Shown: positions 5,161 through 63,833 of the stretch, piece by piece
Layout of the letters: each line of letters opens with the position of its first letter
Numbering within the stretch: the first letter of the stretch is position 1
DNA from: Bolinopsis microptera
Taxonomy: Eukaryota > Ctenophora > Tentaculata > Lobata > Bolinopsidae
NCBI RefSeq assembly: GCF_026151205.1
Contig: NC_087074.1
Coordinates: 16,627,962 to 16,691,961 of the forward strand
Length of the DNA stretch: 64,000 bases
Direction of reading: 5' to 3'
Made by a program: the position numbers and the translations under genes
The notes under the pieces: model-generated
Database searches by the model: none
What the model saw: only the letters and a program-made list of their open reading frames with translations
What the model was told of the DNA's origin: nothing

Positions 5161-5164
5161 TTTT

Positions 5165-8234: not shown

Positions 8235-8284
8235 ATTTTAGTCTTCAAATCATGACCACCAACCCAACCTCTTGAAAAAATACT

Positions 8285-13797: not shown

Positions 13798-14853
13798 ATG
13801 ACGGTCGATACTTGTGAACTATGTGGCAATCAGTCAAACCGTTTTACATGCCAGATGTGTATAACCACAGGCAATTTCTGGGCTGACAAAGCTAGGTTTT
13901 CATTCAATGGAAAAAAACAAATTGTTTATAATTTAAAGGGGGAGAAATCAGATCTTCAGAATCAGGTGGCAAAAGCTTACACTTCATCTTGTGAATCAAA
14001 AGAAAGCACTTTAAAATCTGTTAGAAATGAGATAGTGACTCTACAAGAAAGGATTGAACTCATAAAACAACAGACAAATGATCTAAGGGACCAGACAATT
14101 ATTAAGCAAAAGCTGTTAGTTGAGCGTCACAAAAGAGTCAATGAGAAAAAATTATCCCTTCAGAAATTTGTAGAAAAATTGGAGACTACTCAAACTCAAC
14201 ATTCTAAAACATTAGAATTTGTGGCAGATGTTCGAGATGATCTGCAAAGACAGTCTCAAGATGTTCTGAGATCCTTGAACAGAAACATCTACAAAATAAA
14301 CAGCAGTGACGAAGATAATAAAAGTATGCTTGGTATTCATTTTCACGAGTGTTGTGATGCATCTTCATATGTACGGCAGATAAAGATAAACAGAAACGAA
14401 GAATTATCCCACAATACCTACGTCGTATTATCTCTGTTAACCCAACTTTGCAATGTGCTGTCTCCAATTCTTGATTGCAATTTACCCTATAAAATCGATC
14501 TGAGCAGTTTTGCAGGCTACGGAAGAACTTCAAGACTTATCTTCACATCGGTCAAACAACTCAGCTCAAACATTCTTTATCTTTGCTTATCACAACAGGT
14601 TCATCCAGAACTTTTAGAGCCATACGCTTTCATCAGCAACCTCCAACAGCTGTTTGAGTCAGAAGATGTGTGTGACTATCGAACATTCTGTCATTCCCTC
14701 GATCGTCCAGGGGACAGTGATTCAGAGGACACCCCCCCTTCTAGTTCAGATTCTGATGCAGGATGGGAAACAGTCACAGAGGTACAGGAGGAACCCGCTC
14801 CTGCTCTTATGGGTCGTTCTTCTTCTTACTTGGGGTCTCTTATTTGGAAATAA
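13798..14853 (+). CDS. ATG14: Beclin-1-associated autophagy factor ATG14 (Barkor)
   Basis: This is a 351-residue protein in a single exon. ATG14 targets the class III PI3-kinase complex (VPS34, VPS15, Beclin 1) to the ER sites where autophagosomes form. The N-terminus has the paired CxxC motifs typical of ATG14 (CELC at 6-9, CQMC at 18-21, then GNFW). Residues about 45-155 are heptad-rich coiled coil for Beclin 1 binding. A conserved C-terminal core follows (LTQLCNVLSPILDCNLPYK and NILYLCLSQQVHPE). The tail is acidic and Ser-rich, has WETV, and ends in a short hydrophobic stretch (SSYLGSLIWK) resembling the membrane-sensing end. It is shorter than the human protein. A 3' splice-like site, CAATCCTCAG, lies about 13 bp before the ATG, so a spliced or trans-spliced leader is likely. 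Confidence 0.92.
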   Translation: MTVDTCELCGNQSNRFTCQMCITTGNFWADKARFSFNGKKQIVYNLKGEKSDLQNQVAKAYTSSCESKESTLKSVRNEIVTLQERIELIKQQTNDLRDQTIIKQKLLVERHKRVNEKKLSLQKFVEKLETTQTQHSKTLEFVADVRDDLQRQSQDVLRSLNRNIYKINSSDEDNKSMLGIHFHECCDASSYVRQIKINRNEELSHNTYVVLSLLTQLCNVLSPILDCNLPYKIDLSSFAGYGRTSRLIFTSVKQLSSNILYLCLSQQVHPELLEPYAFISNLQQLFESEDVCDYRTFCHSLDRPGDSDSEDTPPSSSDSDAGWETVTEVQEEPAPALMGRSSSYLGSLIWK

Positions 14854-30857: not shown

Positions 30858-32564
30858 TTACCCTGTGTAATACACGACAGGTCTTATCTTTGCGGTGTTA
30901 CCGTGGAAGTGACCGCGGTAGTCATAGACATATCCCGGTGGTTTACTTCCTTCACCTTGCTTGTAGAAACGTTGTGACCCCCAGCACCAGTATTTGTTAG
31001 TTCCATCTCGTTGTGGTTTACCGCACCATGTTACCGGACGGGCGTTGTCAGATTTACCCATATAGTTAGTTACATCAATAGTAAAGTGTAAGTTATCAGC
31101 TAACATGTGGGATTCTCTGTGGAAATGTATATCATCAGGGTAGAGGTTAGGGTCTGTGACTAGTTGTATGTTGAACGAATCATCGTATTTTCCTGTTGCG
31201 GCTGTTACTCGCAGTTTAAACCCACAATCCCCTTCCTTGCTGCAGTTTGTTATAGATGATTGTCTGTATTTGAACTTGATGTCGTGATCTCGTGCAAATA
31301 GTTCTTCTGGTGTGTACTCAGAAATTGATGGAATACGATTGATAATTTCATTAGTTACCAAATTAGGATGTTTTCGTATTCTATCAGTTAATCCACCACT
31401 GCCTAGATAACCTTTAGCTTCCATATATTTGAGATCTATAGGTTTCCAGCCTCTTCTTATCATGAGATCAGAGAATACCTCAACACAATAGCTGCTGATG
31501 TATACAGATGGGGTATTCACTTCAATTCCATTGTCAAAAAACCAGCTATAAACCGCATCATAAAAAACATAGCTGTTTACCACCAGTGGAGATTCAATCA
31601 AGAAGTTTGTTATTCGCACGGGAGTATTTAATTCGTTCGCGTTCACCTGCTTGTAGTCATGAAACAAGTTGGGTAAAGCTGCATGTGGTATGACAGTGTT
31701 TGTCTCTTTCAAAGCCATATTGTTGGGTAAAGCTGTGCATGCGATGTTCATCTCTTTCTGGGCTTTATTATATTGTTTCAGAGCCCTCATAATTAACCTG
31801 AAGTCCTCAGTCGAAGGATTTTCGATTTCCTCAAGCTTTTCGAACAGTCGTTGATAACCATGAGTTACGGAGGAAGAAAGGGAGGATTTATAGTTCAATC
31901 TCTCAAGTATAAATCTACGGTTCTCATCAATAGTACATTCATTGTTTTCTAAGTTGTTCAATAGAGCTTCCACAAGAATGTGCTCCTGATCAGCTGCCAT
32001 TTCTATTATCACTTCAAGATTCTTTTTAGGACAAGATGAGACGTCTTTCAAGTATTGGGCTGCAAAATATTGAGTGCAAGTTGACAAGGATGCGAATTGC
32101 TTGATGACAATATCTATAAGTCTCCTCTTTTTTCGTTTATCCATAACGAACATGGCCTCGTCAAATAAGAATAGCTGGTCTTCAAAGTTATCCTCTCTTA
32201 CGGACTCAGTCAATTCCTGAAAGTACTCAAAGCACTTTTCGACTACCCAATCCACCTCAAACACGCAGGCCATTTTATTCAGATCTCGGAAATTTGACTT
32301 TGACAACTTCTCCAAAACACCAGAGTAAGAAGCTTCTAGAAAGCACTCTACAGCATATTTCGAGAAGTCCTCGACTGGTATTTCTGTTTGGAAAAGTTCT
32401 ACTGTCATTTTCTTTATAACCGGACTGTTGAAGGACATAATTGCTGAATTAGCGAAAAGTTCATCGTCCTGTAGAATGAACTTGAGGTTGCCGTGGGAGG
32501 GGGAGCCGAGATATTCCAACCCAAAGTTCATCGGCACTTGAATGCACGGTATTGGGGCGGCCAT
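30858..32564 (-). CDS. BTB/POZ-domain protein, intact copy
   Basis: This intronless gene encodes 568 residues from the ATG at 32562-32564 (MAAPIPC). A longer frame starts at 32675, but its extra part encodes a poly-Lys run from a purine tract. The other copies vary in that tract and lack an open frame through it, so the inner start is preferred. Residues about 8-115 look like a BTB domain (GNLKFILQDDELFANSAIMSF, FLEASYSGVLEKL, ACVFEVDWVVEKCFEYF). A helical BACK-like region follows (about 120-260). The C-terminal 240 residues have six or more Cys and no domain I recognise (CSKEGDCGF, TWCGKPQRDG, NKYWCWGSQRFYK). BTB-BACK proteins often act as Cullin-3 adaptors, but that role is not shown here. 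Confidence 0.8.
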   Translation of the reverse strand: MAAPIPCIQVPMNFGLEYLGSPSHGNLKFILQDDELFANSAIMSFNSPVIKKMTVELFQTEIPVEDFSKYAVECFLEASYSGVLEKLSKSNFRDLNKMACVFEVDWVVEKCFEYFQELTESVREDNFEDQLFLFDEAMFVMDKRKKRRLIDIVIKQFASLSTCTQYFAAQYLKDVSSCPKKNLEVIIEMAADQEHILVEALLNNLENNECTIDENRRFILERLNYKSSLSSSVTHGYQRLFEKLEEIENPSTEDFRLIMRALKQYNKAQKEMNIACTALPNNMALKETNTVIPHAALPNLFHDYKQVNANELNTPVRITNFLIESPLVVNSYVFYDAVYSWFFDNGIEVNTPSVYISSYCVEVFSDLMIRRGWKPIDLKYMEAKGYLGSGGLTDRIRKHPNLVTNEIINRIPSISEYTPEELFARDHDIKFKYRQSSITNCSKEGDCGFKLRVTAATGKYDDSFNIQLVTDPNLYPDDIHFHRESHMLADNLHFTIDVTNYMGKSDNARPVTWCGKPQRDGTNKYWCWGSQRFYKQGEGSKPPGYVYDYRGHFHGNTAKIRPVVYYTG

Positions 32565-32675
32565 CCTATTCTTTTTCTTTTTTTTCTTTCTTTTCTTTTT
32601 CTTTGAGACAGGCTCAACCTGGTGGCCCACGAGAGGATTACATGAAAATGCTTTGCCTGCTTCTGGGTTCAGCAT

Positions 32676-34674
32676 GATCCCTGCTGGATGGAGGGGTTAA
32701 ATGTGTGGAGATGATAATGTAAAAGTGAGAGGTGATATAATGTAGTGAGTAGATGTTGTGTTGATTAATGTGATCCTGTTCTTGTGTTATAGTGCTGGAA
32801 GTGATTTAATTTCAGATAGTGATGTTTACTCAATTCACAGCTAATTGCAAATAAAGGTTAAGTTTTATTATATGGAAAAACTTCCATTTTCAATACGTCA
32901 CAATGGAATAACTGGATTGTGATAGGATAAACGTAACTGAATCTTAAGTGCAGTGGATTATTACTGTTTAGATGCAATTTCGATATACATATAATGAAGG
33001 ATCAAACAAATCTATACGGGTAACAAAATAATACGTACGCAACATAAAAGAACGAAAGCGTCACTAGATTTCAAATATAATACATCGGTGCACTCTTTCT
33101 GAGGTTTGTTTGTAAAATAATTATGTGTGTAAACACACAATACACATCATATGCTTTGTATTTATAACCAAGACACGCTGAAAATTAAATATACACAGGT
33201 ATTCCAAGTTCCAGCCCAAAATTCACCGGTACTATTGCACATACTTACAGTGCGCTACTTATTACTTAAGAAATTACAAAAGAAATAAAGTCGTAATAAA
33301 ATATTTATTAAATAATAATAAAACGTCTATCATTAAGAATTACAGAAAATCGTTAAAAAGAGGAAATGCAAATCAAAATAATTTCGTGCTTTGAGGGACT
33401 GCAAAAAATAAAAAAGTACTGAATTGTAAAGAATCAAAATCAAAGTTATCGTCATATGCTAGTCACAAGGTTTTTTATCACAAGTCCAGTAATTTTCATT
33501 GGTACGCTCAAATTACAGAGGACAGAAGTACTATGTATCCAGTCTAAAAATTATCAGTTGTCTCAAGTCTCAAGTATCATTGTGGTCGATTAATTAATAC
33601 TATGTACACTTACAGTACATTAACAATAACATCACCACATCTATCACTAATAAGTAATTCCATGGTCCTGACACGCTCTAAAGATGTTTCTCTCACAACT
33701 CTACCGACCATGATCTCAATTATCGCACATATTTCGACAGGTAGATAACATACTCCGGTAATATTTGTGTGCTTATCTGGTAATGCACAACACAGCTGTA
33801 CGGTGCTACTCCTGAACTTGCCAACTCGTGTCTAATTGTTGGGCTGAAAACTTAAATCACACTTGCTCTGCTGAAAGCGTGGAAAATTAAATAATATTCT
33901 CTGAGAAAAGTAGAACTACTTTTCCAGGAACTGAGAAATGGCCCAAGGTGGCGGTTGTGTCTTATATAATCGTTAAAATAATATCAAGTACAGTGGCGTA
34001 ACGTTGCCTGTTAAATCAGTCGCCAGAACAGAGTCACATTTCACTTTTATATAACAGACGTTAATTCTACCGACGTCGTTTTGAGCCGAACCTTTCTCCC
34101 CAATCGTCGCCAAAGTCGTAAAATTGGAAACCTCCTCCCCTTTGTTTGACGACGTAATTCATTCCAGTTACAACCTTTACTTGAACTATAAATGACCTGT
34201 TAATCGTGCCTTTTTAACTCCAAGCTAAAATTTTCAGTTATTTGTCTTTTAAGAGATAGAATAAGCTCGACATATAAAATGGATATACCATGATCAGTGG
34301 TAATGCTAAAATAATGACCACATATTGTCGCAAAAAACGTGCGCAGATAATTTCGAATAAAAAGTACGCATGAGATGTCTAATCAAAAGTAATATTTTAA
34401 ACAAAGAGTATGTATCAGTATTCAGTATAAGATTTTTTAGAGTACACATTATAATTCCTTAATTCAAAAAAAAAGCTAACATAGGATTTAGAATTGAAGA
34501 AGTACTCATACTATTTTAAATTACACCTTTCAATTTAAGACAGTGTCAAAATAATTTTCAGGCAGGCAATCAGTTCCTGGGATGAATGATTTCTATGTTT
34601 TCATAAACAGTTCAGGTATTGTCATTGATTATTTCATGTTCTGCGAATTAATCTCTTGTATCTGCTGATCTAAG
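32676..34674. other. upstream region of BTB copy 1 and 3' flank of copy 2
   Basis: This is non-coding, AT-rich DNA. From about 34240 to 34680 it is recognisably similar to 30480-30860 (shared AAAAAGTACGCATGAGAT and ATCAGTTCCTG motifs). The tandem duplication therefore included the 3' flank of the gene. Confidence 0.55.
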
Positions 34675-39837: not shown

Positions 39838-40980
39838 ATGAATGCGGGGCTTGAAGAACTGCTCCGAGAGAATCAGTGCGGGTTCAGGAAAAACAGGTCT
39901 TGCATAGATCAGATTTATTCGCTCCGTACTATTATTCACAACAGCATTGAGTTTAATTAAATCTCCCCCTTTACATAAATTTTGTGGACTTTAAAGCTGC
40001 ATTCGATTCACTTAATCGGGAGTTTATCTGGAAAGATTTCAGTCATTATGGCTTGCCTTGTAAATACATTCGCATAATGCAAGCATTCTTTTGCGGCACC
40101 GTCAGCGCTGTCAGACATAATGGCGAGCTCTCTGAGTGGTTTGACGTTACATCTGGTTCTGGGCAGGGGGATATTCAGGGTCCACCTATCTTTAATGTTT
40201 GCATCAACCTGCCTGCGCAGCGGGCTGAGGATAACAAAGTGTTGTCACACGGGGCAGTGCTGCAGAGAGCTACCACCAGCTCTGGTCAGGATACAGTCGT
40301 CTTGGATACTGACTATGCAGATGATTTGGCTATCATGGACAACACCAAGGACGGTCTCCAGGAGACGACTGATCTTTTATGCAAGTATGCGGCTCAGGCT
40401 GGCCTCAGAATCAATGCGAAGAAAACAGAGGTTATGGCCATCGGCAAGAATACATCACAGAGGCCGTATACTGAAGCATCAACGGTGGACATTACAGTAG
40501 GAGACACGGCTATCCAGCAAGTCAGCAACTTCACTTACCTTGGGTCGATTATATCAAGTGATGGGACTATTGACCGGGACTTGTCTGCACGGATCCAGAA
40601 AGCCTCAGGAGCATTCAATCAGCTCGGTAATATTTGGAAGAATTGCAATATCCAAACTAACACCAAAATACGGATATATGTTGCAGCGGTTCTAACAATA
40701 TTACTTTATGGAAGCGAAGTCTGGAACACTACTTCAAAGCAACTACATCGCTTCGAAGTTTTTCATCAAAACTGTTTGAGGAGAATCCTTCGAATTAAGT
40801 GGTTCCACCGGACGAGCAATGTTCAAGTGTTGGAGCGGGCAAGAATAAACCTGGTTATAACCTACATCAGTGCCAACCGTCTTCGCTGGTTTGGACATGT
40901 TTCTAGAATGCCGGACACCAGGCTACCAAAGTATCTACTTGACTGGACACCTGCTCTCGGCCGAAGATCACGTGGGCGGC
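39838..40980 (+). pseudogene. RTE-like reverse transcriptase, first part
   Basis: The frame opens with ENQCGFRKNRSC, shifts by one base near 39957, then continues with VDFKAAFDSLNREF, GSGQGDIQGPPIFN, the catalytic DYADDLAI, YLGSIISSDG and RRILRIKWFHRTSN, followed by RLRWFGHVSRMPD. The last motifs are common at the end of RTE-type reverse transcriptases. It breaks off at the foldback insertion after GRRSRGR. It lacks the endonuclease and N-terminal half. Confidence 0.85.
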
Positions 40981-41050
40981 AGTAGTGTATTGTGCACAGT
41001 ACACACCTTTTTTGAAGGGTTTCCGAGGTAATTTCCAAACATACCGTATG

Positions 41051-41114
41051 TGGCGTGATGACACGGTAATATGTCACAATATTTTACATAGTTGAAGGTA
41101 CCTGGTTCGATCCC
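41051..41114 (+). promoter_or_regulatory. tRNA-like pol III promoter, left arm
   Basis: TGGCGTGATGACACGG resembles an A box and GGTTCGATCCC at 41104-41114 is a near-perfect B box, 53 bp apart. This spacing is within the tRNA range. The T stem is imperfect, so it looks like a tRNA-derived SINE head and not a working tRNA gene. Confidence 0.45.
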
Positions 41115-41718
41115 CCACCAGCCCCGCCCCATAATTTAATTACATGTACATCTATTGTTTAAAGTATCAACAATGTTAACATCTGGCAAGCGGCGACCTT
41201 TTAACGGTGTGCTGATGAGGTTCGAAATAATGTCTAATGTTCTTTAATCTAAATTTAGTGCACCGTTTCAGGACAACACCTGGCACTTTGCTTACACTAT
41301 CATTCAGCGTTCAGCTGTTTGTTGCGTAAATTCTGACTCTGTTTCAGCTTTAATTGTTCTGAACTTTAACTTAACTGTTTTTAATTCTTTTGACTGTAGT
41401 GTTTACCTGATACATAATTTTCCTCTAGACGAGTAATTATTACAGAAATAAATTCAAACATTCAACTTGCCAGGATTATGCTGAACGAAATTATATCAGA
41501 TCTCCATAAGGTAGTATGACGCAATGAATAAAGATGCAACTGCCAGTGCACCATGTTAATTACTGTTCCCAATTCTTTAATCATACCCGTAAATATTTGC
41601 TCGGTATCTGACAGCAGTTCATCGATTGATGTTCCGTGTTCTGTTTCCTGATATTTTGTGAGCGGAATATTAAATATTTTCTTGCGTAAGATAAGATGAA
41701 ATCCGTCACCTTATCTTA

Positions 41719-42545
41719 CACAATACTGAATACTGAATGAATACTGACTACTGAATGAATACTGAATGAATACTGAATGAATACTGAATACTGAATGAAT
41801 ACTGAATGAATACTGAATGAATACTGAATGAATACTGAATGAATACTGAATACTGAATGAATACTGAATGAATACTGAATGAATACTGAATGAATACTGA
41901 ATGAATACTGAATGAATACTGAATGAATACTGAATGAATACTGAATGAATACTGCATGAATACTGAATGAATACTGAATGAATACTGAATGAATACTGAT
42001 GAATACTGAATGAATACTGAATGAATACTGAATGAATACTGAATGAATACTGACTGAATACTGAATGAATACTGAATGAATACTGAATGAATACTGAATG
42101 AATACTGAATGAATACTGAATGAATACTGAATGAATACTGAATGAATACTGAATGAATACTGAATGAATACTGAATGAATACTGAATGAATACTGAATGA
42201 ATACTGAATGAATACTGAATGAATACTGAATGAATACTGAATGAATACTGCATGAATACTGAATGAATACTGAATGAATACTGAATGAATACTGAATGAA
42301 TACTGAATGAATACTGAATGAATACTGAATGAATACTGAATGAATACTGACTGAATACTGAATGAATACTGAATGAATACTGAATGAATACTGAATGAAT
42401 ACTGAATGAATACTGAATGAATACTGAATGAATACTGAATGAATACTGAATACTGAATGAATACTGAATGAATACTAAATGAATACTGAATGAATGTTGA
42501 ATAATGAATACTGAATAATACTGAATAATATACTGAATACTGAAT
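41719..42545. repeat. 11-bp tandem repeat (GAATACTGAAT), left arm
   Basis: About 75 copies with rare variants (GCATG, GACTG, a shortened GATGA unit). The same variants occur in the mirrored array on the right arm. Frames across it encode only SIHSVFIQYSF-like repeats. Confidence 0.95.
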
Positions 42546-42699
42546 GATAATTATGATGTATTATTTTTAAAAAAAGTTATAATGTAGACAAGGAAACACA
42601 TGTTTAGATTTTTGAAGATAATTTTAACTAAACTATATTCAATAACTCTATATATCCAAATTCTTATCTCAATAATTATCAACGTTTTGGTTATAAAGT

Positions 42700-43395
42700 T
42701 CAAGAATCTTCCTGACGATATATTTGTGAAAGTTTAAGAAGCTTGATGATAATATTTTTGTTCTCGTTCATTAGTTTGTTGACATCAGATAGACTAGTAG
42801 TCGTGATAACTGCATTCAACAGAGCTTGTTCTTCCATACTTAAAATTGTGGCGATGTCTTGTCCACAGTCAATGAGATGCTGCTCAAATTTCGCAAACAT
42901 TTCCGTTTTCATTATGTAAGAGAATAAAAAGTCCATACATTCGTTTTCTTCCTTGCATAATTTACTTTGTAACAGGACATCTAGAGATTTGAGTAATTTC
43001 GACATATCATTTACCTTTTTATTTATTTGCTTGATTGCTACGCTTTTCCGCTTGCCTTTGTGTTGCCGAACTGAGTCAGATTCTAACTCATCACTACTTA
43101 ACACACTTCTACTATCACTATATGGTATTTTTGACTCATCATCAGCACTTGTTTCCTCATAGTTAGAACCGTCTTGTTGAGATTCTTCAGATATTATCGT
43201 ATCAGCATCTGAATATGTGGAAGCAGGATAATCCAGTTTTACATCAGTCGCATCCGAGTTAGCTTTTGATAGTGGTTGAATTTTAGAGCTTGTTTCTGAC
43301 TCTCCGTTCTCTCGATGATACCGACTTTTGTGTGAGGACAGGCTATATCTATTGACAAAAGACTTGTCACAAAATGAGCAAGATATAGGACTCAT
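42700..43395 (-). CDS. C2H2 zinc-finger protein carried by the foldback element, intact copy
   Basis: The product has 231 residues from the ATG at 43393-43395. One C2H2 finger lies at the N-terminus (CSFCDKSFVNRYSLSSH...H, Cys-x2-Cys-x12-His-x4-His). A Ser/Asp/Glu-rich acidic stretch follows, then a basic KGKRKS motif, and then a helical C-terminal half with no recognised domain. It may be a DNA-binding accessory protein of the element or a captured host gene. The mirrored copy at 43824-44519 is nearly identical but broken. Confidence 0.75.
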   Translation of the reverse strand: MSPISCSFCDKSFVNRYSLSSHKSRYHRENGESETSSKIQPLSKANSDATDVKLDYPASTYSDADTIISEESQQDGSNYEETSADDESKIPYSDSRSVLSSDELESDSVRQHKGKRKSVAIKQINKKVNDMSKLLKSLDVLLQSKLCKEENECMDFLFSYIMKTEMFAKFEQHLIDCGQDIATILSMEEQALLNAVITTTSLSDVNKLMNENKNIIIKLLKLSQIYRQEDS

Positions 43396-43546
43396 GATAT
43401 TACAAAGGATACGTTTAGAACGTTTTGCAACAACAGTCTTCAAATATATTATTCAATCTAACGGGAATGCTTCAAATTTTGTGGAGTAATTAACTCAGAC
43501 CCACGTGCTATTTTATATTTTAAAAAAACAACTAATCTGCTTTCCC

Positions 43547-43672
43547 TACCCTACCCTCCTCCCTCCAGGGAGGGAGGGTAGGAAAGGAGGGAGGGAGCCC
43601 GAAGTCCTTAACACCCGTACATACAAATACAATGGGACCTAACCGTTGGTTAAGAAAAAGACACGTCGATCA
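43547..43672. other. spacer at the centre of the foldback element
   Basis: These 126 bp are the only part of the element not duplicated between arms. They begin with a smaller imperfect inverted repeat of CCCTCCCTCC/GGGAGGGAGG type. That could be where the fold-back arose. Confidence 0.7.
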
Positions 43673-43823
43673 GGGAAAGCAGATTAGTTGTTTTTAAAAA
43701 ATATAAAATAGCACGTGGGTCTGAGTTAATTACTCCACAAAATTTGAAGCATTCCCGTTAGATTGAATAATATATTTGAAGACTGTTGTTGCAAAACTTT
43801 CTAAACGTATCCTTTGTAATATC

Positions 43824-44519
43824 ATGAGTCCTATATCTTGCTCATTTTGTGACAAGTCTTTTGTCAATAAATATAGCCTGTCCTCACACTAAAGTCGGTA
43901 TCATCGAGAGAACGGAGAGTCAGAAACAAGCTCTAACATTCAACCACTATCAAAAGCTAACTCGGATGCGACTGATGTAAAACTGGATTATCCTGCTTCC
44001 ACATATTCAGATGCTGATACGATAATATCTGAAGAATCTCAACAAGACGGTTCTAACTATGAGGAAACAAGTGCTGATGATGAGTCAAAAATACCATATA
44101 GTGATAGTAGAAGTGTGTTAAGTAGTGATGAGTTAGAATCTGACTCAGTTCGGCAACACAAAGGCAAGCGGAAAAGCGTAGCAATCAAGCAAATAAATAA
44201 AAAGGTAAATGATATGTCGAAATTACTCAAATCTCTAGATGTCCTGTTACAAAGTAAATTATGCAAGGAAGAAAACGAATGTATGGACTTTTTATTCTCT
44301 TACATAATGAAAACGGAAATGTTTGCGAAATTTGAGCAGCATCTCATTGACTGTGGACAAGACATCGCCACAATTTTAAGTATGGAAGAACAAGCTCTGT
44401 TGAATGCAGTTATCACGACTACTAGTCTATCTGATGTCAACAAACTAATGAACGAGAACAAAAATATTATCATCAAGCTTCTTAAACTTTCACAAATATA
44501 TCGTCAGGAAGATTCTTGA
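43824..44519 (+). pseudogene. C2H2 zinc-finger protein, broken mirrored copy
   Basis: This has the same length and frame as the intact copy, but a TAA replaces the Lys codon that follows SLSSH inside the zinc finger (at about 43890). Other differences are few (for example R to K in the finger, K to N after TSS). The nonsense mutation removes everything after the first part of the finger. Confidence 0.85.
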
Positions 44520-44671
44520 ACTTTATAACCAAAACGTTGATAATTATTGAGATAAGAATTTGGATATATAGAGTTATTGAATATAGTTTAGTTAAAATTA
44601 TCTTCAAAAATCTAAACATGTGTTTCCTTGTCTACATTATAACTTTTTTTAAAAATAATACATCATAATTA

Positions 44672-45706
44672 TCATTCAGTATTCAGTATATTATTCAGTA
44701 TTATTCAGTATTCATTATTCAACATTCATTCAGTATTCATTTAGTATTCATTCAGTATTCATTCAGTATTCAGTATTCATTCAGTATTCATTCAGTATTC
44801 ATTCAGTATTCATTCAGTATTCATTCAGTATTCATTCAGTATTCATTCAGTATTCAGTCAGTATTCATTCAGTATTCATTCAGTATTCATTCAGTATTCA
44901 TTCAGTATTCATTCAGTATTCATTCAGTATTCATTCAGTATTCATTCAGTATTCATTCAGTATTCATGCAGTATTCATTCAGTATTCATTCAGTATTCAT
45001 TCAGTATTCATTCAGTATTCATTCAGTATTCATTCAGTATTCATTCAGTATTCATTCAGTATTCATTCAGTATTCATTCAGTATTCATTCAGTATTCATT
45101 CAGTATTCATTCAGTATTCATTCAGTATTCATTCAGTATTCATTCAGTATTCATTCAGTATTCATTCAGTATTCATTCAGTATTCATTCAGTATTCAGTC
45201 AGTATTCATTCAGTATTCATTCAGTATTCATTCAGTATTCATTCAGTATTCATCAGTATTCATTCAGTATTCATTCAGTATTCATTCAGTATTCATGCAG
45301 TATTCATTCAGTATTCATTCAGTATTCATTCAGTATTCATTCAGTATTCATTCAGTATTCATTCAGTATTCATTCAGTATTCATTCAGTATTCAGTCAGT
45401 ATTCATTCAGTATTCATTCAGTATTCATTCAGTATTCATTCAGTATTCATTCAGTATTCATTCAGTATTCATGCAGTATTCATTCAGTATTCATTCAGTA
45501 TTCATTCAGTATTCATTCAGTATTCATTCAGTATTCATTCAGTATTCATTCAGTATTCATTCAGTATTCATTCAGTATTCAGTATTCATTCAGTATTCAT
45601 TCAGTATTCATTCAGTATTCATTCAGTATTCATTCAGTATTCAGTATTCATTCAGTATTCATTCAGTATTCATTCAGTAGTCAGTATTCATTCAGTATTC
45701 AGTATT
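44672..45706. repeat. 11-bp tandem repeat, right arm
   Basis: This is the inverted counterpart of the array at 41719-42545, about 200 bp longer (roughly 94 copies). The length difference means the arms have changed independently since they were formed or last homogenised. Confidence 0.95.
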
Positions 45707-46314
45707 GTGTAAGATAAGGTGACGGATTTCATCTTATCTTACTCAAGAAAATATTTAATATTCCGCTCACAAAATATCAGGAAACAGAACACGGAACATC
45801 AATCGATGAACTGCTGTCAGATACCGAGCAAATATTTACGGGTATGATTAAAGAATTGGGAACAGTAATTAACATGGTGCACTGGCAGTTGCATCTTTAT
45901 TCATTGCGTCATACTACCTTATGGAGATCTGATATAATTTCGTTCAGCATAATCCTGGCAAGTTGAATGTTTGAATTTATTTCTGTAATAATTACTCGTC
46001 TAGAGGAAAATTATGTATCAGGTAAACACTACAGTCAAAAGAATTAAAAACAGTTAAGTTAAAGTTCAGAACAATTAAAGCTGAAACAGAGTCAGAATTT
46101 ACGCAACAAACAGCTGAACGCTGAATGATAGTGTAAGCAAAGTGCCAGGTGTTGTCCTGAAACGGTGCACTAAATTTAGATTAAAGAACATTAGACATTA
46201 TTTCGAACCTCATCAGCACACCGTTAAAAGGTCGCCGCTTGCCAGATGTTAACATTGTTGATACTTTAAACAATAGATGTACATGTAATTAAATTATGGG
46301 GCGGGGCTGGTGGG

Positions 46315-46377
46315 GGATCGAACCAGGTACCTTCAACTATGTAAAATATTGTGACATATTACCGTGTCATCACGCCA
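46315..46377 (-). promoter_or_regulatory. tRNA-like pol III promoter, right arm
   Basis: This is the mirror of the left-arm sequence: B box at about 46315-46325 and A box at 46362-46377 on the - strand. Both arms would therefore direct transcription inward. Confidence 0.45.
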
Positions 46378-46448
46378 CATACGGTATGTTTGGAAATTAC
46401 CTCGGAAAACCCTTCAAAAAAGGTGTGTACTGTGCACAATACACTACT

Positions 46449-46621
46449 GGCGGCCAAGAAAGAATTGGCGAACCTGTGTCCTAGAAGACGCAGTAACATT
46501 CACAGGAGATCCAGACATTGTATTTGATAAGGTCCGAGAGTTGGCAGGAAACCGAAAGCACTGGAGAGAGATGATACGACATAAGCGGCAATTCCTTGCT
46601 GCAGGCCACTCGAATGATTGA
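46449..46621 (+). pseudogene. RTE-like reverse transcriptase, C-terminal end
   Basis: This continues the frame of 39984-40980 after the foldback element is removed: PRKNWRTCVLEDAV ... RHKRQFLAAGHSND, then TGA. About 30 bp later the LINE ends in AAGT repeats. Confidence 0.85.
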
Positions 46622-46652
46622 GGAGACCTTATCAAGTATCAAGTAAGTAAGT

Positions 46653-47779
46653 ATAGGTTTCCAGCATCTGTTTATCATGAGATCAGAGAATATCTCAACA
46701 AATTTGTCGCTTCTGCACAAAAGCAGGGTCTTCACATCAATTCTTTTGTTAAAAAGCCAGCTATAAACTGCATCATAGAAAACATAGCTGTTTACCACAA
46801 GTGGAGACTCAATCAAGAAGTTTGTTAGTGCCTCCAGATTCTTTATGTCGTTCACCTACTCAAAGTCATGAAACAAGTTGGGTAGAGCTGCATATGGTAT
46901 GACAGTGTTCATCTCCTTCAAGGCCCTTATATTGTTGGGTAAAGCTGTGCATGCGATGGAAGTTTTCATCTCCTTCAGGGCTTTATTGTATTGTTTTAGT
47001 GCCCTCATAATTAACCTGAAGTCCTCAGTTGAAGGATTTTCCAGTTCCTCGAGCTTTTCAAATAGTCGCTGATACGCAGACTCGGAAGGAGAAAGGGAGG
47101 ATTTATAGTTCAATCTCTCAATTATAAATCTACTGTTCTGATCAATAGTGCATGCTTTGTATTCTAAGTTGTTCAATAGAGCTTCCACAAGAATGTGCTC
47201 CTGATCAGCTGCCATTTCCATTATCACTTCAAGATTCTTTTGAGGACAAGATGACACGTTTTTCAAGTATTGTGTTGCAAAATATTGAGTGCAAGTCGCC
47301 AAGGATGCAAATTGCTTAATGACAAGATCTATAAGTCTCCTCTTTATTCGATTATCCATAACGAACATGGCCTCATCAAATAAGAATAGCTGTTCTTCAA
47401 AGTTATCCTCTCTTACGGACTCAGTCAATTCCTGAAAGTACTCAAAGCACTTTTCGATTACCCAATCCACCTCAAACACGCATGCCATTTTATTCAGATC
47501 TCGGAAATTTGACTTTGACAACTTTTCTAAAACACCAGAATAAGAGGCTTCTAGAAAGCACTCTAAAGCATATTTCGAGAAGTCCTCGACTGGTATTTCT
47601 GTTTGGAAAAGTTCTACTGTCATTTTCTTTATAACCGGACTGTTGAAGGACATAATTGCTGAATTAGTGAGAAGTTCTTCGTCCTGTAGAATGAACTTGA
47701 GGTTGCCGTGGGAGGGGGAGCCGAGATATTCCAACCCAAAGTTCATTGGCACTTGAATGCACGGTATTGGGGAGGCCAT
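46653..47779 (-). pseudogene. BTB copy 2, N-terminal and middle part
   Basis: The ATG is at 47777-47779 (MASPIPC). About 307 codons match the BTB gene at 30858-32564, followed by a TAG at 46856-46858 where copy 1 has a CAG (HDYKQVN). The match then continues to the LINE border (TNFLIESPLVVNSYVF). The middle contains a short duplicated NI(R)ALKEM segment not in copy 1. With the nonsense codon and the two insertions downstream, this copy cannot make the full protein, though a BTB-only product is possible. Confidence 0.88.
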
Positions 47780-47818
47780 CCTATTCTTTCTTTTTTTCCT
47801 TTCTTTAAAAGACAGGCT

Positions 47819-47939
47819 ATTGCTGTTATCGAAGAATATGTCAATATCATGCTGCACTGTTCTAAACTGTTAGGCACCCGCGCGCTACGTATCCAAAGGA
47901 AAGTACCAAACGCCGAGACACAAAACCTACAGCCATTAA
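47819..47939. repeat. 121-bp dispersed repeat at the BTB duplication junction
   Basis: It starts ATTGCTGTTAT and ends CAGCCATTAA, and matches 50654-50770 in the same orientation with few differences. It sits exactly between the 5' flank of copy 2 and the truncated copy 3. Confidence 0.85.
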
Positions 47940-47941
47940 CT

Positions 47942-48445
47942 CGCAAAATATTGAGTGCAAATCGCCAAGGATGCAAATTGCTTAATGACAAGATCTATAA
48001 GTCTCCTCTTTATTCGATTATCCATAACGAACATGGCCTCATCAAATAAGAATAGCTGTTCTTCAAAGTTATCCTCTCTTACGGACTCAGTCAATTCCTG
48101 AAAGTACTCAAAGCACTTTTCGATTACCCAATCCACCTCAAACACGCAGGCCATTTTATTCAGATCTCGGAAATTTGACTTTGACAACTTCTCCAAAACA
48201 CCAGAATAAGAGGCTTCTAGAAAGCACTCTACAGCATATTTCGAGAAGTCCTCGACTGGTATTTCTGTTTGGAAAAGTTCTACTGTCATTTTCTTTATAA
48301 CCGGACTGTTGAAGGACATAATTGCTGAATTAGTGAGAAGTTCCTCGTCCTGTAGAATGAACTTGAGGTTGCCGTGGGAGGGGGAGCCGAGATATTCCAA
48401 CCCAAAGTTCATTGGCACTTGAATGCACGGTATTGGGGAGGCCAT
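47942..48445 (-). pseudogene. BTB copy 3, N-terminal fragment
   Basis: The ATG at 48443-48445 begins about 168 codons nearly identical to copy 2, covering the BTB domain and the start of the BACK-like region. It stops where the 121-bp repeat begins. Its upstream DNA (to about 48570) matches the upstream DNA of copy 1. A truncated BTB-only protein could be made from it. Confidence 0.85.
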
Positions 48446-48570
48446 CCTATTCTTTCTTTTTTTTCCTTTCTTTAAAAGACAGGCTCGACCTGGTGGCCCA
48501 CGAGAAGATTACATGAAGATGTTTTGCCTGCTTCTGGGTGTAGCATCCCTGCTGGATGCCGGGGTTAAAT

Positions 48571-55979: not shown

Positions 55980-58900
55980 TCAAAGTTCAATGTCAACTTC
56001 TCCTTTGGTAGCCACGTTGACGTGAACTTCTCCGTTCTTTGCGTTCCTTTTACCACCCTATAGAAAAAAGGTGTTACCAAGGTGTTACTGAGGTGTTACT
56101 TAGGTGTTACTACCATGATTTTAGGTTATACAAAAAAGATTCTGAACATGACATTGGGTATTGATTATATTTAAATCATTTGTGTTTTCCTAGCTACAAG
56201 TACAATCAAGGAAAATAATCAAGGAAAACAATCAGGGAATACAGTTCAGGTTCATGCGATGATTGTGAAGTATTGTAACATGCGATTTTAATGATTGGAA
56301 ATAATATTTACAGCTATAGCAGGGAAAATTATTTCTGTTAAGTGTTAAGATTTGCGGCAAGATAGTCGTATCCAGCATTTAACATTTAACAATCATACCT
56401 GCATATCTACCACAATAACTTCAATTTCGGGCTCGGATTTCTTTTTCTTTGAGCTTATGAAATCATTAAACCCCTCTATAAGATCCGGGTGACCATCGAA
56501 AAGAATCTTAACCTCTGCTCTGAGATCTGATTTACTAAGTTTCTTAGGTTTAAAGTCATTTAGCATTTTTAGAAAAGTCTTATAAACTTCAGGTTGATCC
56601 GCAAATCTGGTCTGGACTTGATCCACGAACTCAGTGGCCGCATTGAATTTAGGGTGGGACTCTGGTGATGCCGCCAGATCCGTGATGATTTCCTTATCAG
56701 AATCAATTGCTGCCGGGTTCTTCGTAACCTGATACATTTTACTATATAGATACCGTAGACCCGGCCAAGTATATTATGTGCCCACTATTTTATCAGCTCC
56801 TTGTTTCTGTTATTGATGTATTCAACATATTTGCATAAAAGAACCTTGTGCAATCAAAACGGATTGGATTCATTGAAAAGTTTGGCATATTTATCAATAT
56901 GGGCATACTTTATACATACTGTACAGCAGCAATCATGGCTTTCTAAAGACTAAAATACCATTGAACTAATCATTAGGATTCTATTTTAAAATAATTATTT
57001 TCATGACCCCGACCGTACCTGAAGTACATCGACTACTGTGTATTCATTTTCCGTAGTTTGATTTTTCCCCTTCGATTTCAAGAACTCATTGAAGGCATCC
57101 ACCAGGTCCGGATGCCCTTGAAACAGCACCTCAACCTTTCCCGCCAAGTCCGATCTATTTATGTTCTTAGCTCTGTATTCTGTGAGGGTGTTCAAAAATG
57201 CTCGATAAATATCCGGTGCTTTCTCGAAACGGTCCTGTACTCTGTCCAGGAAATTAACAGCATCATGGAATTTAGGATGAGACTCGGGCGGGGACAGGTT
57301 AGTTTCCTGAACCGGATTTCTGATGACCGTTGGTTCCAGAGGTATCGGCTTCTCCTGCAACGAATAATTCTCTGTACAGGGCGCCAACTAATTGCTGGGG
57401 TGTGATACTGATAGCATGGTAGTTGTGGGGGTTAATGGGGCCACCACTTAAGTTTATTAAATAACCACTCGGATCCTTGCCAATTGTGCTAACATGCTCT
57501 ACCAATTAGATAAACAGCAATTTAAAGACCAATAACAGATGTTGACTGTTGATATAAGTTGGCCACCTAGGCCACCTTGCACCTTCAAATCACCAGTGTA
57601 CAAATTGCCCTTAATAACATCACCAAGCACATCTTTAATAGACTCGACTATTATAGCATCTAAACTGGTAGATGAATAGCTGGCCGCGTGTTATTAGTCC
57701 AGGGAAACAATTAGCTAGAGATACAGGCTGTGTCACATGGGAACACGGCACAATGGCTACTTACAAAAGGAGTGAAATGTGAAAACATGACAAAGACCAC
57801 ATTCTACTCTCTTCTTAGAAACGCAGTTGGAATGTGAACCGGTACCTGAACGCTGGTAGGTCACATGAGATGTTTACCTAACACTTATAGCTATATAGCC
57901 ACTTTGTGTTCACATTCAACTGATATAGAGGGCTATTAAAGCTCGGTAATTATTGTGAACGAAGAGACGGTGGTTCTTTGTCACGTCAGCTAATGAACTA
58001 TTTAAATGAAACAGAATGTTTTTTTAAAAGAATGATGTCTACTTGTCTAGCCAATTAAGGGACGTACAGCAAATATAAAGCTTTTCAACTTTGGAGCTAT
58101 AAACTTCTCAGAGCGATAATATGAAAAACACAAGCTTTCCCGCTCATCACTCACCAGATACAATGCTAATTTCATGAATTTAAAGAGATATAGTTAATGG
58201 TGAAAGCTTAGAAACAGAACGTTTGCATATAAATGAAATAAAAAAATGCTTTTCTTAACTAAGTTAGTTAACTTGGTTAAGTTAACTAAGTTCGTTAGTA
58301 TTGAACAGATCACAAAGAGATTTGGAAACGCTATATCTTACCTTTGTCTTTTTGCGTTTTGCGCAACATGTTCGGCAGCAGATGAACGCGAAAATGATGA
58401 AGAGGAGCCCTACAGCAATACAGATGGCTACGATTATTCCACCCCAGTTCGTTTCTGCGGGTAGGGTTGGTTTAGTGTTTTCTAACAACAATATTGCTCT
58501 TGATTAACCGTTCATTGAGAAAGGAAGCTGCCACAAAACTCCCCTTTTATCATTTCTCTGAGCAGTAAAAACAGAATCTTCACAATCCCATGCTTCAAAG
58601 TTGATGCCACCCTTTATCTCTTTATAATGCCATCTGGCAGCATCGTACACACTCCATCAAACGAAACATTTGTTATTGCTTAAATCATATTAAATCCACC
58701 ATTCTCTTCTACATTCAAGGCAGCTAATTCTATTTTGTATAACCAATTTTAGAACTCCAGAATGCTATTTAACAAATTCAATATCATCTAACTTATAGAA
58801 TAACGTCAGAAAGGGTCGAAGTTAACTAACTACAGTATTATACAAGTAAAAATCTCCGCAAGCAACCCTCGCGCGAATAATGAAATGTTGGGTACTTACT

Positions 58901-61080
58901 TTCCTTGGGGTCGAATGTAACAGTAAACTGAAAGAAATGTACACCGTTAGTAAATGTTATACAGTTTCCATGGATAATTCGCATAATAGTTTGCCACAAT
59001 ATATAGCACAGAATTTTCAACTTGAGATTGGGGACATCACGGTCAAAGCTTATTCTTTGTTAAATTACGGAGAAATAGAATTCTCATAGACTTACTTCTC
59101 GACTAAACTCGGCCTCTTGTCCATCATACGAAAACCGGAAAGCACACCCATATTTCTCATCCAAAATTGGTTCCTTTTGATCCTCCTTCTTCTTCAACAA
59201 CTCCAGTTCATTAAATTTAACTGCTGCCGTATTCGCATCTGGATAAACCAATTCCTCCAATATCTTTCCAGATACCAAATGTGTTATATCACTCTCTGAA
59301 TGAGGAGTATGTTACACTTATTATCTTCACTTAATGAGGAAAAAGTTACACTAATCATTTTCACTTAATGATGAATATGTTGCACTCACTATCATCACTT
59401 TATGAGAATTTCGCCCTAACGTGCTCTATTTTTACATTTGAGTCAATCATAAAGTATTTGCAGCCTTTAAAATGCTGCAAAGTGTCAATTTACTTACCTT
59501 CTAGTTTGCCTTCTCCTGGGTTATCAATAAATGTGCAAACAAAAGCATCCTCTTCCCTCTCCTTCTCATCCATCCGTTCGTAATACACCACTTGGAGCCC
59601 AGGGTGGTTCTTCCAATCAACAGAGGGGACCGAATTTATATCTGTAGGTGGGAGAGTGTGTTAGAGCAAATCGGGCTGTTTCTATGGTGACGCGTAACTA
59701 GACGTGTATGGAATGTTAAGTGGAATGTTAAGTGGAATTTTGCAGAATTCCATTGTTTAAGGTTCCCAGTTTTACATTCCGGAACGCATCCAGATTGAAT
59801 TGCTTGGAAGGAAACTCAATTATGGGCACTGCTCCCGGAATTTAAGGGAGATTTTGTTTGTATAAGCGATGGAATTTCTTTGAATTGAATAGATTGACTG
59901 GTGGACTAATAAAAACACTAATAACGCTAATAAGATGGTAGTAAGTGCCAAGTGGAACTGGTGAAAGTGGAAGAATAGCTTAAATTAGCTCTGTAAAAGT
60001 CGGTTATAAAATAATATGAGTAGTGATACATTTCAGTATTATGTATCACGATGGAAATATTTTAAGCCAGTCCAAACCAGCTGGCTCCATAACATGAAGA
60101 CTTCGTTTTAACAATTGTATGAAAAGCACGAATAAGTAAATTCAAAAATAGAAAATTTTGGCGGAAGAAAAATTACCGATCTGATAGAATCTGAGTTTGG
60201 AGTAACCAGTACTGGCATCATTCAGTTTCACAGTGGCGTCAACTTCAAACTTGTAAGTTTCACTTACAATGGGCCACACTTGCAGAGTCACCTTACTCTC
60301 TTCAATTTTGCTGAAAAGAATTTATTGTAGATTTTAGAAAGTGCCAACAACAAAATTATATTAAGTTTAAGAGATTTATAAATACTGTAGTCAAGGGTAA
60401 AATACTTGACGAATTCATGCAGCAAATTAAAATATTAGTAGAAATATTTAAAATGTATCTTACAAGTTGTATTTTGCGACTGCTACATTGAATGTTACAC
60501 TTGGTGCTCCATTATAACCAGTAATTTCATACACTGATTCTCCCATAACATTCCCTGCTTCTATCAAGGCTCCATCGTATATCTCCAGAGTATTTACAGG
60601 ATCCTCCTCTGAAATTGATACTCGTTAGATGAAATTGATACTCGTAAGACGAAATTGATACTTGTTAGCTGTTAATTAGAAACAATGATTAAAACTTTTG
60701 AATTATGACTAACTATTTGTTTCAGAATATGGCACTAACCAGTGCCAAGACACGTATAACAGATCAGGGAACTTGAAGTCTTAAAATCAAGTTCATAATA
60801 CAAAAGTAACTTAGTCCCACGAAAACACAGTAACGGGGTCACTACTACACGTTACACAGAGTAACGGGTCACTACTACACTACTTATTTGTTGGATTTAA
60901 CAGTTGACAATACGCTTGGAACTGTGTAGCTCATATCGTGGTAAGTGGCCCCCTTTTCTACCGTGCCCCCTTTTCTACAGTGTAAACTTAAAAGAACAGC
61001 TCACCTGTACCCAGCTTATTACAATGCAAAACATCGAACAAAGTCACTGAAAACGCCAGGAAACGCACAAAACCGCACAT
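55980..61080 (-). CDS. type I membrane protein with two cytoplasmic PAH (SIN3-type) domains
   Basis: Ten exons: 61005-61080, 60464-60608, 60177-60310, 59498-59641, 59096-59295, 58900-58927, 58342-58454, 57019-57354, 56399-56728, 55980-56057. Every junction has GT/AG and matching phase, giving 1,584 nt and 527 residues. Residues 1-20 are a signal peptide (MCGFVRFLAFSVTLFDVLHC). About 21-245 form a beta-rich, possibly Ig-like extracellular part with few Cys (FVCTF, YGCAF). A membrane helix (about 249-269, IIVAICIAVGLLFII) ends in CCRTCCAKRKKTK. The tail has PAH domains at about 306-373 (KFHDAVNFLDRVQDRFE, LFQGHPDLVDAFNEFL) and 417-484 (KFNAATEFVDQVQTRFAD, LFDGHPDLIEGFNDFI). PAH domains bind short amphipathic helices and are otherwise known from the nuclear corepressor SIN3. 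Function is unknown; cleavage and nuclear signalling, or scaffolding, are guesses. Confidence 0.78.
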
Positions 61081-61689
61081 GATACAGTTACTATTTACTA
61101 AGCTACATTCCACACAACTTTACGAGACTTCAAGCAACTGAATGGCACTGAATGCGATGACCGATCGTGAACGAAACGAAAGAACGAGAAATGAAAACAC
61201 ATTAATACCGGTGTGTCACACATGTTATTAGTGTTATTAGTCAATACCGGCATTACCGACACTCCATATCACATTTCTTATGATTAACATAATAGAATCT
61301 CGAGTTACACACGGGAAGGTGTCTAAGGGGTCATGACAAAAGCTCCCAGTAGTTACTATGGTGGTTACCATGGTAACAGTTGGTGGTTTCCATGGTTATA
61401 CTTACGGTATACTTGGAGGTATTTCCGTGCGTATTCAGCGCCTCCAGATACGACTCCCTTCACTACGAAGCTTGTGGAGGACTTAACGGTGTCTGAAATT
61501 AGTAAGATTAGTAAAATTTATATTAAAATTAGTAAAATTATTAAAATTAGCGAGATTGTTATTCCACGGAAACACACAATAATCCATACCACTGATGGAC
61601 CATAGATTATGGTTAATCTATATCTTTTAAACGTTATTCGAGCCCAGAATATAGGTTGCGTAATAAGTCAACAATTAAATATTCTCCAA
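61081..61689. other. upstream region of the PAH-receptor gene
   Basis: No gene is seen. The stretch 61168-61197 is rich in GAAA motifs. The + frame at 61333-61605 has no recognisable domain and ends in ATT/AAA-rich repeats. Confidence 0.45.
61168..61197. promoter_or_regulatory. GAAA-repeat cluster, IRF/ISRE-like
   Basis: CGAAACGAAAG and GAGAAATGAAAAC lie about 90-115 bp upstream of the start codon. Closely spaced GAAA motifs resemble sites bound by interferon-regulatory-factor-type proteins. The spacing is not the strict consensus. Confidence 0.25.
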
Positions 61690-63483
61690 CTAGCTGGGAG
61701 GGTAATAGTACAGTAGGTGGCTACTAACTAGCTGGGAGGGTAATAGTACAGTAGGTGGCTACTAACTAGCTGGGAGGGTAATAGTACAGTAGGTGGCTAC
61801 TTACTAGCTGGGAGGGTAATAGTACAGTAGGTGGCTAATTACTAGCTGGGAGGGTAATAGTACAGTAGGTGGCTACTTACTAGCTGGGAGGGTAATAGTA
61901 CAGTAGGTGGCTACTTACTAGCTGGGAGGGTAATAGTACAGTAGGTGGCTACTTACTAGCTGGGAGGGTAATAGTACAGTAGGTGGCTACTTACTAGCTG
62001 GGAGGGTAATAGTACAGTAGGTGGCTACTTACTAGCTGGGAGGGTAATAGTACAGTAGGTGGCTACTTACTAGCTGGGAGGGTAATAGTACAGTAGGTGG
62101 CTACTTACTAGCTGGGAGGGTAATAGTACAGTAGGTGGCTACTTACTAGCTGGGAGGGTAATAGTACAGTAGGTGGCTACTTACTAGCTGGGAGGGTAAT
62201 AGTACAGTAGGTGGCTACTTACTAGCTGGGAGGGTAATAGTACAGTAGGTGGCTACTTACTAGCTGGGAGGGTAATAGTACAGTAGGTGGCTACTTACTA
62301 GCTGGGAGGGTAATAGTACAGTAGGTGGCTACTTACTAGCTGGGAGGGTAATAGTACAGTAGGTGGCTACTTACTAGCTGGGAGGGTAATAGTACAGTAG
62401 GTGGCTACTTACTAGCTGGGAGGGTAATAGTACAGTAGGTGGCTACTTACTAGCTGGGAGGGTAATAGTACAGTAGGTGGCTACTTACTAGCTGGGAGGG
62501 TAATAGTACAGTAGGTGGCTACTTACTAGCTGGGAGGGTAATAGTACAGTAGGTGGCTACTTACTAGCTGAGAGGGTAATAATACAGTAGGTAGCTACTT
62601 ACTAGCTGGGAGGGTAATAGTACAGTAGGTGGCTACTTACTAGCTGGGAAGTGGGAGGGTAATAGTACAGTAGGTGGCTACTTACTAGCTGGGAGGGTAA
62701 TAATACAGTAGGTAGCTACTTACTAGCTGGGAGGGTAATAGTACAGTAGGTGGCTACTTACTAGCTGGGAGGGTAATAGTACAGTAGGTGGCTACTTACT
62801 AGCTGGGAGGGTAATAGTACAGTAGGTGGCTACTTACTAGCTGGGAGGGTAATAGTACAGTAGGTGGCTACTTACTAGCTGGGAGGGTAATAGTACAGTA
62901 GGTGGCTACTTACTAGCTGGGAGGGTAATAGTACAGTAGGTGGCTACTAACTAGCTGGGAGGGTAATAGTACAGTAGGTGGCTACTTACTAGCTGGGAGG
63001 GTAATAGTACAGTAGGTGGCTACTTACTAGCTGGGAAGTGGGAGGGTAATAGTACAGTAGGTGGCTACTTACTAGCTGGGAGGGTAATAGTACAGTAGGT
63101 GGCTACTTACTAGCTGGGAGGGTAATAGTACAGTAGGTGGCTACTTACTAGCTGGGAGGGTAATAGTACAGTAGGTGGCTACTTACTAGCTGGGAGGGTA
63201 ATAGTACAGTAGGTGGCTACTTACTAGCTGGGAGGGTAATAGTACAGTAGGTGGCTACTTACTAGCTGGGAGGGTAATAGTACAGTAGGTGGCTAATTAC
63301 TAGCTGGGAGGGTAATAGTACAGTAGGTAGCTACTTACTAGCTGGGAGGGTAATAGTACAGTAGGTGGCTAATTACTAGCTGGGAGGGTAATAGTACAGT
63401 AGGTGGCTACTTACTAGCTGGGAGGGTAATAGTACAGTAGGTGGCTACTTACTAGCTGGGAGGGTAATAGTACAGTAGGTGGC
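61690..63483. repeat. 38-bp minisatellite, about 47 copies
   Basis: Each unit contains TAGCTGGGAGGGTAATAGTA and CAGTAGGTGGCTACTTAC. Two units carry a 9-bp extension (GGGAAGTGGGAGGG, near 62645 and 63030) and two have a paired change to AATAATACAGTAGGTAG (near 62577 and 62700). The array lies between the start of one - strand gene and the end of another. Confidence 0.95.
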
Positions 63484-63833
63484 TTCGTTCTCTGCAACTA
63501 CATATTTTTCTGAGTTTGATCTCTTTTTCCTCCCATAATATCCCGGATTAGTTTGTCTCTTGTACGTTTTTCCAGTTGATTCGTCAAACCTGAAGATTCA
63601 AGTCAGCAGAGGCACACTAGACAGAATTTATTTGAGTTATTTATATTATCTAAACTTACAAAATCTGACGCGAAAATGTGTTACACTATGCACATGAACA
63701 TCACCTTCAGTTGTCAGTTATGTTTATTGTTCAACCTACCATGAGCAGCCAAGATTAACAACTTTTTTACTGAAATACACCTTCAGTTTAATTCCATCGT
63801 TGTATTCAACATAGTCGGTGGTGTGGTCAAATT
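63445..63833 (-). CDS. last two exons of an unidentified gene, rest beyond the window
   Basis: Exon 63740-63833 (acceptor TTTTTTGCAG, donor GTAGGT) joins exon 63445-63589 (acceptor ATCTTCAG) in matching phase. The product reads FDHTTDYVEYNDGIKLKVYF ... VNLGCSWFDESTGKTYKRQT ... YYGRKKRSNSEKYVVAENEA and then stops at TAG (63445-63447) inside the first minisatellite unit. The first exon enters in phase 1, as most extracellular exons of the neighbouring gene do. I do not recognise the family; a beta-rich secreted or extracellular protein is possible. Confidence 0.5.

Follow-up and report, generated by a model that had tools for sequence, protein, structure and literature searches.

A predicted ctenophore Ig-superfamily receptor with two SIN3-type PAH domains as its putative cytoplasmic tail

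In a 64,000-nucleotide stretch of the genome of the ctenophore Bolinopsis microptera (hereafter the window; C3:16627962-16691961), a gene on the minus strand appears to encode a large single-pass receptor of the immunoglobulin (Ig) superfamily. Its cytoplasmic tail would consist of two SIN3-type PAH domains, which are predicted to dock partners carrying amphipathic helices. We lean toward this reading of the locus. Sequence analysis and structure prediction establish the PAH folds as modeled, the hydrophobic positions of their clefts, one membrane helix and a chain of exons compatible in phase. Ten exons running from 61080 down to 55980 (all exon coordinates here are window positions) had been proposed in an initial annotation of this DNA, and they hold together: the nine introns are all GT-AG, and the exons join in phase to give a 527-residue frame. 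As that annotation had claimed, the frame has one membrane helix, marked by a single strong hydropathy peak of 3.34 at residues 249-267, and its N terminus carries a hydrophobic stretch (Kyte-Doolittle peak 1.5).

PAH domains of the predicted tail and their relatives

PAH domains are familiar from transcription complexes, where they bind short repressor helices, and for SIN3 they are established to bind short amphipathic helices of disordered partners. The Pfam PAH profile (PF02671) matched the 527-residue model at 102.1 bits (E 1.2e-29, cut-off 21.3) in two stretches, one in exon 8 (PAH-A) and one in exon 9 (PAH-B), so the two SIN3-type domains first called by eye in the tail withstood a profile search. 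In the profile search of the genome, PAH-A scored 52.3 bits and PAH-B 59.6 bits. The PAH_ZNF598 profile reached 25.9 bits in the 527-residue model against a cut-off of 25, and 21.4 bits, under that cut-off, in the longer gene model described below. A sequence search of the PDB with the tail returned 18 distinct sequences, all 18 of the SIN3 family by name (best E 2.3e-24). Neither the HDAC-interaction domain (PF08295) nor the Sin3 C-terminal domain (PF16879) was found by Pfam scans of the 527-residue model at E up to 10 or of the 2,011-residue long model at E up to 0.01.

AlphaFold (AF2), run on each PAH exon alone and each time with a 14-sequence alignment, predicted four helices in both. For exon 8 these span residues 27-42, 47-61, 67-77 and 82-97, with a mean predicted local distance difference test score (pLDDT) of 68.3 and domain blocks at 82-90; for exon 9 they span 31-41, 46-59, 66-76 and 81-93, with a mean pLDDT of 66.7 and domain blocks at 77-87, the means over the whole exons being only this high because both ends are low. 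The comparison with SIN3 PAH structures that the initial annotation had suggested came out in its favor, with Foldseek placing SIN3 PAH structures on top for both exon models at probability 1.00, albeit with modest best E-values (9.2e-4 and 3.2e-3). By title, SIN3 PAH or SIN3/HDAC-complex chains occupy ranks 1-22 for exon 9 (best 50 of 53 matches) and ranks 1-17 for exon 8 (best 50 of 88), where the top matches are SIN3 PAH1 and PAH2.

Eight cleft positions were compared under a numbering that we take to be that of SIN3A PAH2 in the SIN3A PAH2-Mad1 complex. All eight are hydrophobic in PAH-A and seven in PAH-B, which has Thr at the I308 position, and from these kept positions each domain is predicted to bind an amphipathic helix. 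PAH-A and PAH-B are 48% identical over the domain, and their exons, of 112 and 110 codons, align end to end. Between the two exons, nonsynonymous divergence (dN) is 0.41 and synonymous divergence (dS) is saturated (89 codons), a pattern that fits selection on the protein.

Our protein searches drew on candidates of about 290-922 residues only and are for that reason silent on relatives of a protein of about 2,000 residues. Within this range the full 527-residue query, scored against the 7,997 candidates sharing most words with it, retrieved one protein, while the PAH part retrieved 11 proteins among 733 candidates. All 11 of the latter carry PAH, and seven are SIN3-like by domain or name. None of the relatives inspected (all but P0009 and P0010) is a single-pass PAH protein, and no PAH domain on a receptor tail is described among the papers listed in searches of the open-access literature, in agreement with the earlier statement that no protein of this architecture was known to have been described.

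Searching the 264.65-Mb assembly (232 contigs) with the PAH model at E up to 0.001 gave seven matches, namely two at the receptor, three in a SIN3 locus on contig C2 and one each on C11 and C93. These fall into three kinds of locus: the receptor gene, a separate SIN3 and an RTEL1-like helicase. The SIN3 locus was confirmed by tblastn and has introns within PAH1 and PAH2. A misassembled SIN3 is ruled out as the source of the receptor's PAH exons, given a SIN3 on another contig with both domains intron-split, and recent duplication of the PAH1 exon from the SIN3 of this genome is not supported, as that PAH1 is divided by an intron, the receptor's PAH exons are intact and their identity to SIN3 PAH1 from other species is 34-38%. 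With regard to a viral or plasmid origin, no match was found in viral contigs (searched with six peptide patterns) or in plasmids (searched with the PAH exons), phage and prokaryote genome collections lying outside the search. The C11 (L006, C11:9646374-9646502) and C93 matches have equal scores and equal open-frame lengths; by eye, the C11 frame is an RTEL1-like helicase whose C-terminal helical domain passes the PAH cut-off. By the account in PMC7948954, RTEL1 carries a related helical hub.

Gene structure

The exons within the window are listed below, all on the minus strand. Splice-site ranks are among the 343 AG (acceptor) and 375 GT (donor) sites in 61600-55900.

55980..56057, minus strand: exon 10, last coding exon, phase 0, ending VATKGEVDIEL-stop; acceptor rank 1 of 343
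56399..56728, minus strand: exon 9, PAH-B, phase 0-0, with the best PAH stretch at residues 439-482 of the 527-residue model; acceptor rank 98 of 343
57019..57354, minus strand: exon 8, PAH-A, phase 0-0; acceptor rank 3 of 343, donor rank 5 of 375
58342..58454, minus strand: exon 7, membrane exon, with helix GIIVAICIAVGLLFIIFAFICC and juxtamembrane CCAKRKKTK, phase 1 in and 0 out; donor rank 4 of 375
58900..58927, minus strand: exon 6, ectodomain
59096..59295, minus strand: exon 5, ectodomain
59498..59641, minus strand: exon 4, ectodomain, the first of three exons (4-6) that make up a phase 1-1 module without a Pfam match
60177..60310, minus strand: exon 3, ectodomain
60464..60608, minus strand: exon 2, ectodomain, making up a phase 1-1 module with exon 3; the acceptor is weak (rank 66 of 343)
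61005..61080, minus strand: exon 1 of the initial annotation, signal-peptide-like, with a phase 1 donor, rank 1 of 375
61406..61492, minus strand: exon U3, ectodomain, phase 1 at its end
63453..63589, minus strand: exon U2, ectodomain; its end and splice donor lie in the repeated unit of the adjoining 38-bp minisatellite
63740..63833, minus strand: exon U1, ectodomain; the draft gene runs on past the window edge to C3:16708287

We infer that the membrane exon and the PAH exons are spliced into one transcript. Exon 8 lacks a Met in its reading frame and therefore needs a phase-0 exon ahead of it, and the membrane exon, which leaves in phase 0, pairs one of the best donors of the region with one of its best acceptors. 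Intron 7 contains no internal phase 0-0 exon of at least 30 bases with both site scores above 2, which makes exon 7 the best upstream partner of exon 8. Exons 8 and 9, aligning end to end and both of phase 0-0, each back the other's borders. When a coding model was given a codon table from upstream exons only (excluding those below 61,100), running on into the PAH exons scored 481.2 and the best end before them 444.1, the exon borders in this comparison having come from a gene scan whose training included the disputed exons. Across the ten exons, codon usage in the chosen frame beats that in the other two in nine, the exception being the membrane exon. If the exon 7 donor is read through (58282-58342), the protein would instead end in the short tail VRYSVSKSLCDLFNTNELS-stop, which may represent an isoform lacking the PAH domains.

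The start of the gene at 61080, by contrast with the exon chain, most likely does not hold. Exons U1-U3 lie upstream of it in the window, Ig-like exons extend 16 kb past the window edge on the same contig, and a signal-peptide-like exon, MILKKALAVLCLVTTVWSG, is found at extended window coordinate 80326 (C3:16708287). We applied a simple dynamic-programming gene model, permitting several genes at a start penalty of 10 bits, to the window plus 49 kb upstream (113 kb, GC 0.389), and its output was a single gene. With its start placed at the MILKKALAVLCLVTTVWSG exon, the draft comprises 41 exons and 2,025 residues, four small exons of 26, 26, 36 and 42 bases being doubtful, and 28 of the 37 introns ahead of the membrane exon are phase 1. 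In the 2,011-residue long model, the Pfam families Ig_3 (102 bits), Ig_2 (87), I-set (78), ig (57) and C1-set (26) all score over their cut-offs. Scanned singly, two of ten modules pass a cut-off, four have sub-threshold Ig matches (E <=0.05) and four have none, among them the two scanned nearest the membrane. The Ig assignment is thus firm for the middle of the predicted ectodomain and not for its membrane-proximal part, and it needs the long gene model. What remains of the protein first proposed is its receptor-like, single-pass character; its short ectodomain is probably replaced by a long multi-Ig one in a much larger gene.

A search of the PDB with the short ectodomain gave no match at E up to 10. 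Comparing three ectodomain modules (U1-U3, exons 2-3 and exons 4-6) by shuffling, we found no signal in two of the three pairs, whose scores were reached by 431 and 458 of 500 shuffles, while the score of exons 2-3 against exons 4-6 was reached by 23 of 500. In the long model, the signal peptide and the one membrane helix come from hydropathy and splice scans alone. For the signal peptide of the initial annotation, the hydrophobic N terminus stood but exon 1 itself is doubtful: it is the only minus-strand signal-peptide-like exon with a phase 1 donor in 54,000-77,000, the scan of the whole 113 kb gave three for the minus strand and one for the plus, and it may be an alternative first exon or a chance occurrence.

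The minisatellite beside U2 occupies 61689-63484, with about 47 copies of its 38-bp unit at 97% matches. Its unit includes the end of exon U2 and the donor GTAAGT, which places dozens of tandem splice donors just within the intron.

Alternative readings and predicted function

Several observations, besides the training of the gene scan noted above, weigh against a single PAH-tailed Ig receptor. In codon-usage score, 30 of 41 open non-coding stretches equal or exceed PAH exon 8, so that this measure does not reliably tell the exons from such stretches. The in-window ectodomain (U1-U3 with exons 2-7) yielded no Pfam match above a cut-off; the Ig assignment depends on exons beyond the window. Among 13 other PAH domains, the closest is from a plant for PAH-A (36%) and from P0007 for PAH-B (40%); SIN3 PAH1 domains come after, at 34-38% identity to the receptor domains, a range that refers to SIN3 of other species, with the genome's own SIN3 outside the alignment. 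Within intron 7, four short ATG exons can be joined to exon 8 in phase 0, and one of these, at 58175-58155 (MKLALYL), has donor rank 3. The acceptor of exon 9 is weak, and an in-frame ATG lies 9 bases ahead of it (56737), from which PAH-B could in principle have its own start; soluble PAH isoforms could therefore exist. Finally, one gene scored 481.2, and a split into two genes, counted without penalties for start and stop, 479.5.

This nearly equal score, together with a signal-peptide-like exon 1 that has the best donor of the region, is what recommends a locus of two genes or promoters, in which an upstream multi-Ig gene would be followed by a short receptor starting at 61080, as in the initial annotation, and made up of two ectodomain modules, the membrane helix and the PAH tail. 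However, the phase 1 end of U3 fits the phase 1 entry of exon 2, and a last coding exon closing the upstream gene between them would at best have 8 bases, which makes one gene likelier; moreover, the scan that permitted several genes settled on a single one. We regard two genes as possible but not probable, and one large gene as likelier even with the split almost equal by score.

As one large gene, the locus would encode a signal peptide, an extended ectodomain built from Ig-size modules (mostly bounded by phase 1 introns) and one membrane helix, and the protein would reside in the plasma membrane. Each PAH cleft would bind a short amphipathic helix from a partner in the cytoplasm, so that the tail would act at the membrane as a dock or scaffold that captures helices, holding signaling adaptors or transcription regulators that carry SID-type helices. 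What the tail holds would then change when a ligand is bound outside or the receptor clusters there. As the Pfam scans found neither the HDAC-interaction domain nor the Sin3 C-terminal domain, the tail would be expected to bind SIN3 partners while the deacetylase complex would not be recruited.

The same features could also serve a signal from membrane to nucleus, with intramembrane proteolysis freeing the tail to enter the nucleus and compete with SIN3 for SID-helix transcription factors; as the HDAC-interaction domain is lacking, repression would be relieved. Consistent with this, the PAH clefts are kept, the Pfam scans are without Sin3_corepress or the Sin3 C-terminal domain, and the basic stretches KRKKTK beside the membrane and KKKK after PAH-B could be nuclear signals. 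Basic residues behind a membrane helix are, however, also an ordinary stop-transfer signal, and we consider this route unlikely. More tentatively than the membrane dock itself, we propose that the locus may represent a new class of animal receptor, in which surface contact sets which SID-bearing regulators the membrane holds, releases or, when the tail is cleaved, keeps from SIN3-HDAC. If true, this would amount to a direct route from cell contact to the repression machinery, or to a membrane use of a nuclear binding module, and in a ctenophore host it would bear on how early animals assembled signaling receptors from existing parts.

An error in the gene model, by which the membrane and PAH exons would lie in separate transcripts and the PAH part would be a small soluble protein, is distinctly improbable: the candidate first exon in intron 7 with its strong donor, the weak exon 9 acceptor with its nearby ATG and an AATAAA at 57458 (a type of motif that is uninformative in AT-rich DNA) are in its favor, but exon 7 is the best upstream partner for exon 8, in an intron without a qualifying phase 0-0 exon, and the joined model scores higher.

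Known systems and neighboring sequence

The predicted receptor shares with SIN3 co-repressors two PAH domains of PAH1-like length and the same predicted fold, and its identity of 34-38% is to the PAH1 of four SIN3-type proteins, one of them from a fish. It differs from them in its membrane helix, its Ig ectodomain and the absence of HDAC-interaction and Sin3 C-terminal domains from the Pfam scans, and its locus is apart from the genome's own SIN3. With multi-Ig receptors it has in common a signal-peptide-like first exon, Pfam Ig matches, a majority of phase 1 introns (28 of 37) and one membrane helix, whereas a tail of PAH domains has no counterpart in that group among the papers listed in searches of the open-access literature.

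Other uses of PAH and related hubs offer partial parallels. In the account of a review of alpha-alpha-hubs, PAH is used in SIN3-type proteins and in plant WRKY19 (PMC7948954), and a table in PMC4759884 includes PAH among the domains that occur as fusions in plant NLR receptors. Plant NLRs with an integrated PAH, such as WRKY19, resemble the predicted receptor in having a PAH module fused to a receptor (PMC7948954, PMC4759884), but NLRs are intracellular (as described in PMC4759884) and without an Ig ectodomain. The same review describes the harmonin-type hubs, the HHD domains of harmonin and whirlin, as membrane scaffolds (PMC7948954), related helical hubs that likewise hold partners near membrane proteins; those proteins are soluble scaffolds that bind receptor tails, whereas here the hub is fused to the receptor. 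P0007, whose PAH is the nearest to PAH-B, is also a membrane protein with PAH. Unlike the predicted receptor, it is multi-pass, with four hydrophobic stretches, a single C-terminal PAH and no Pfam Ig match, and its own gene model may be a fusion.

Rfam and tRNA scans of the 64-kb window gave no matches. Elsewhere in the window, 40973-46456 holds two inverted segments that are 98% alike, each with a C2H2-like open reading frame (42703-43452, minus strand, and 43893-44519, plus strand, the latter with a shorter start) and a long 11-bp repeat. A BTB-domain gene is present in copies at 30858-32696 and 46481-48508, both on the minus strand, which are 90% alike across 1.2 kb; in the first, the copy scanned with Pfam, nothing but BTB scored over a cut-off. 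In the region 727-12046, Copia-like frames for gag and pol lie on the minus strand, and the plus strand has two long LINE-like frames with endonuclease and reverse transcriptase, all named by eye from their translations. At 13795-14853, a single open frame encodes an ATG14 homologue with eleven relatives at 97-35% identity.

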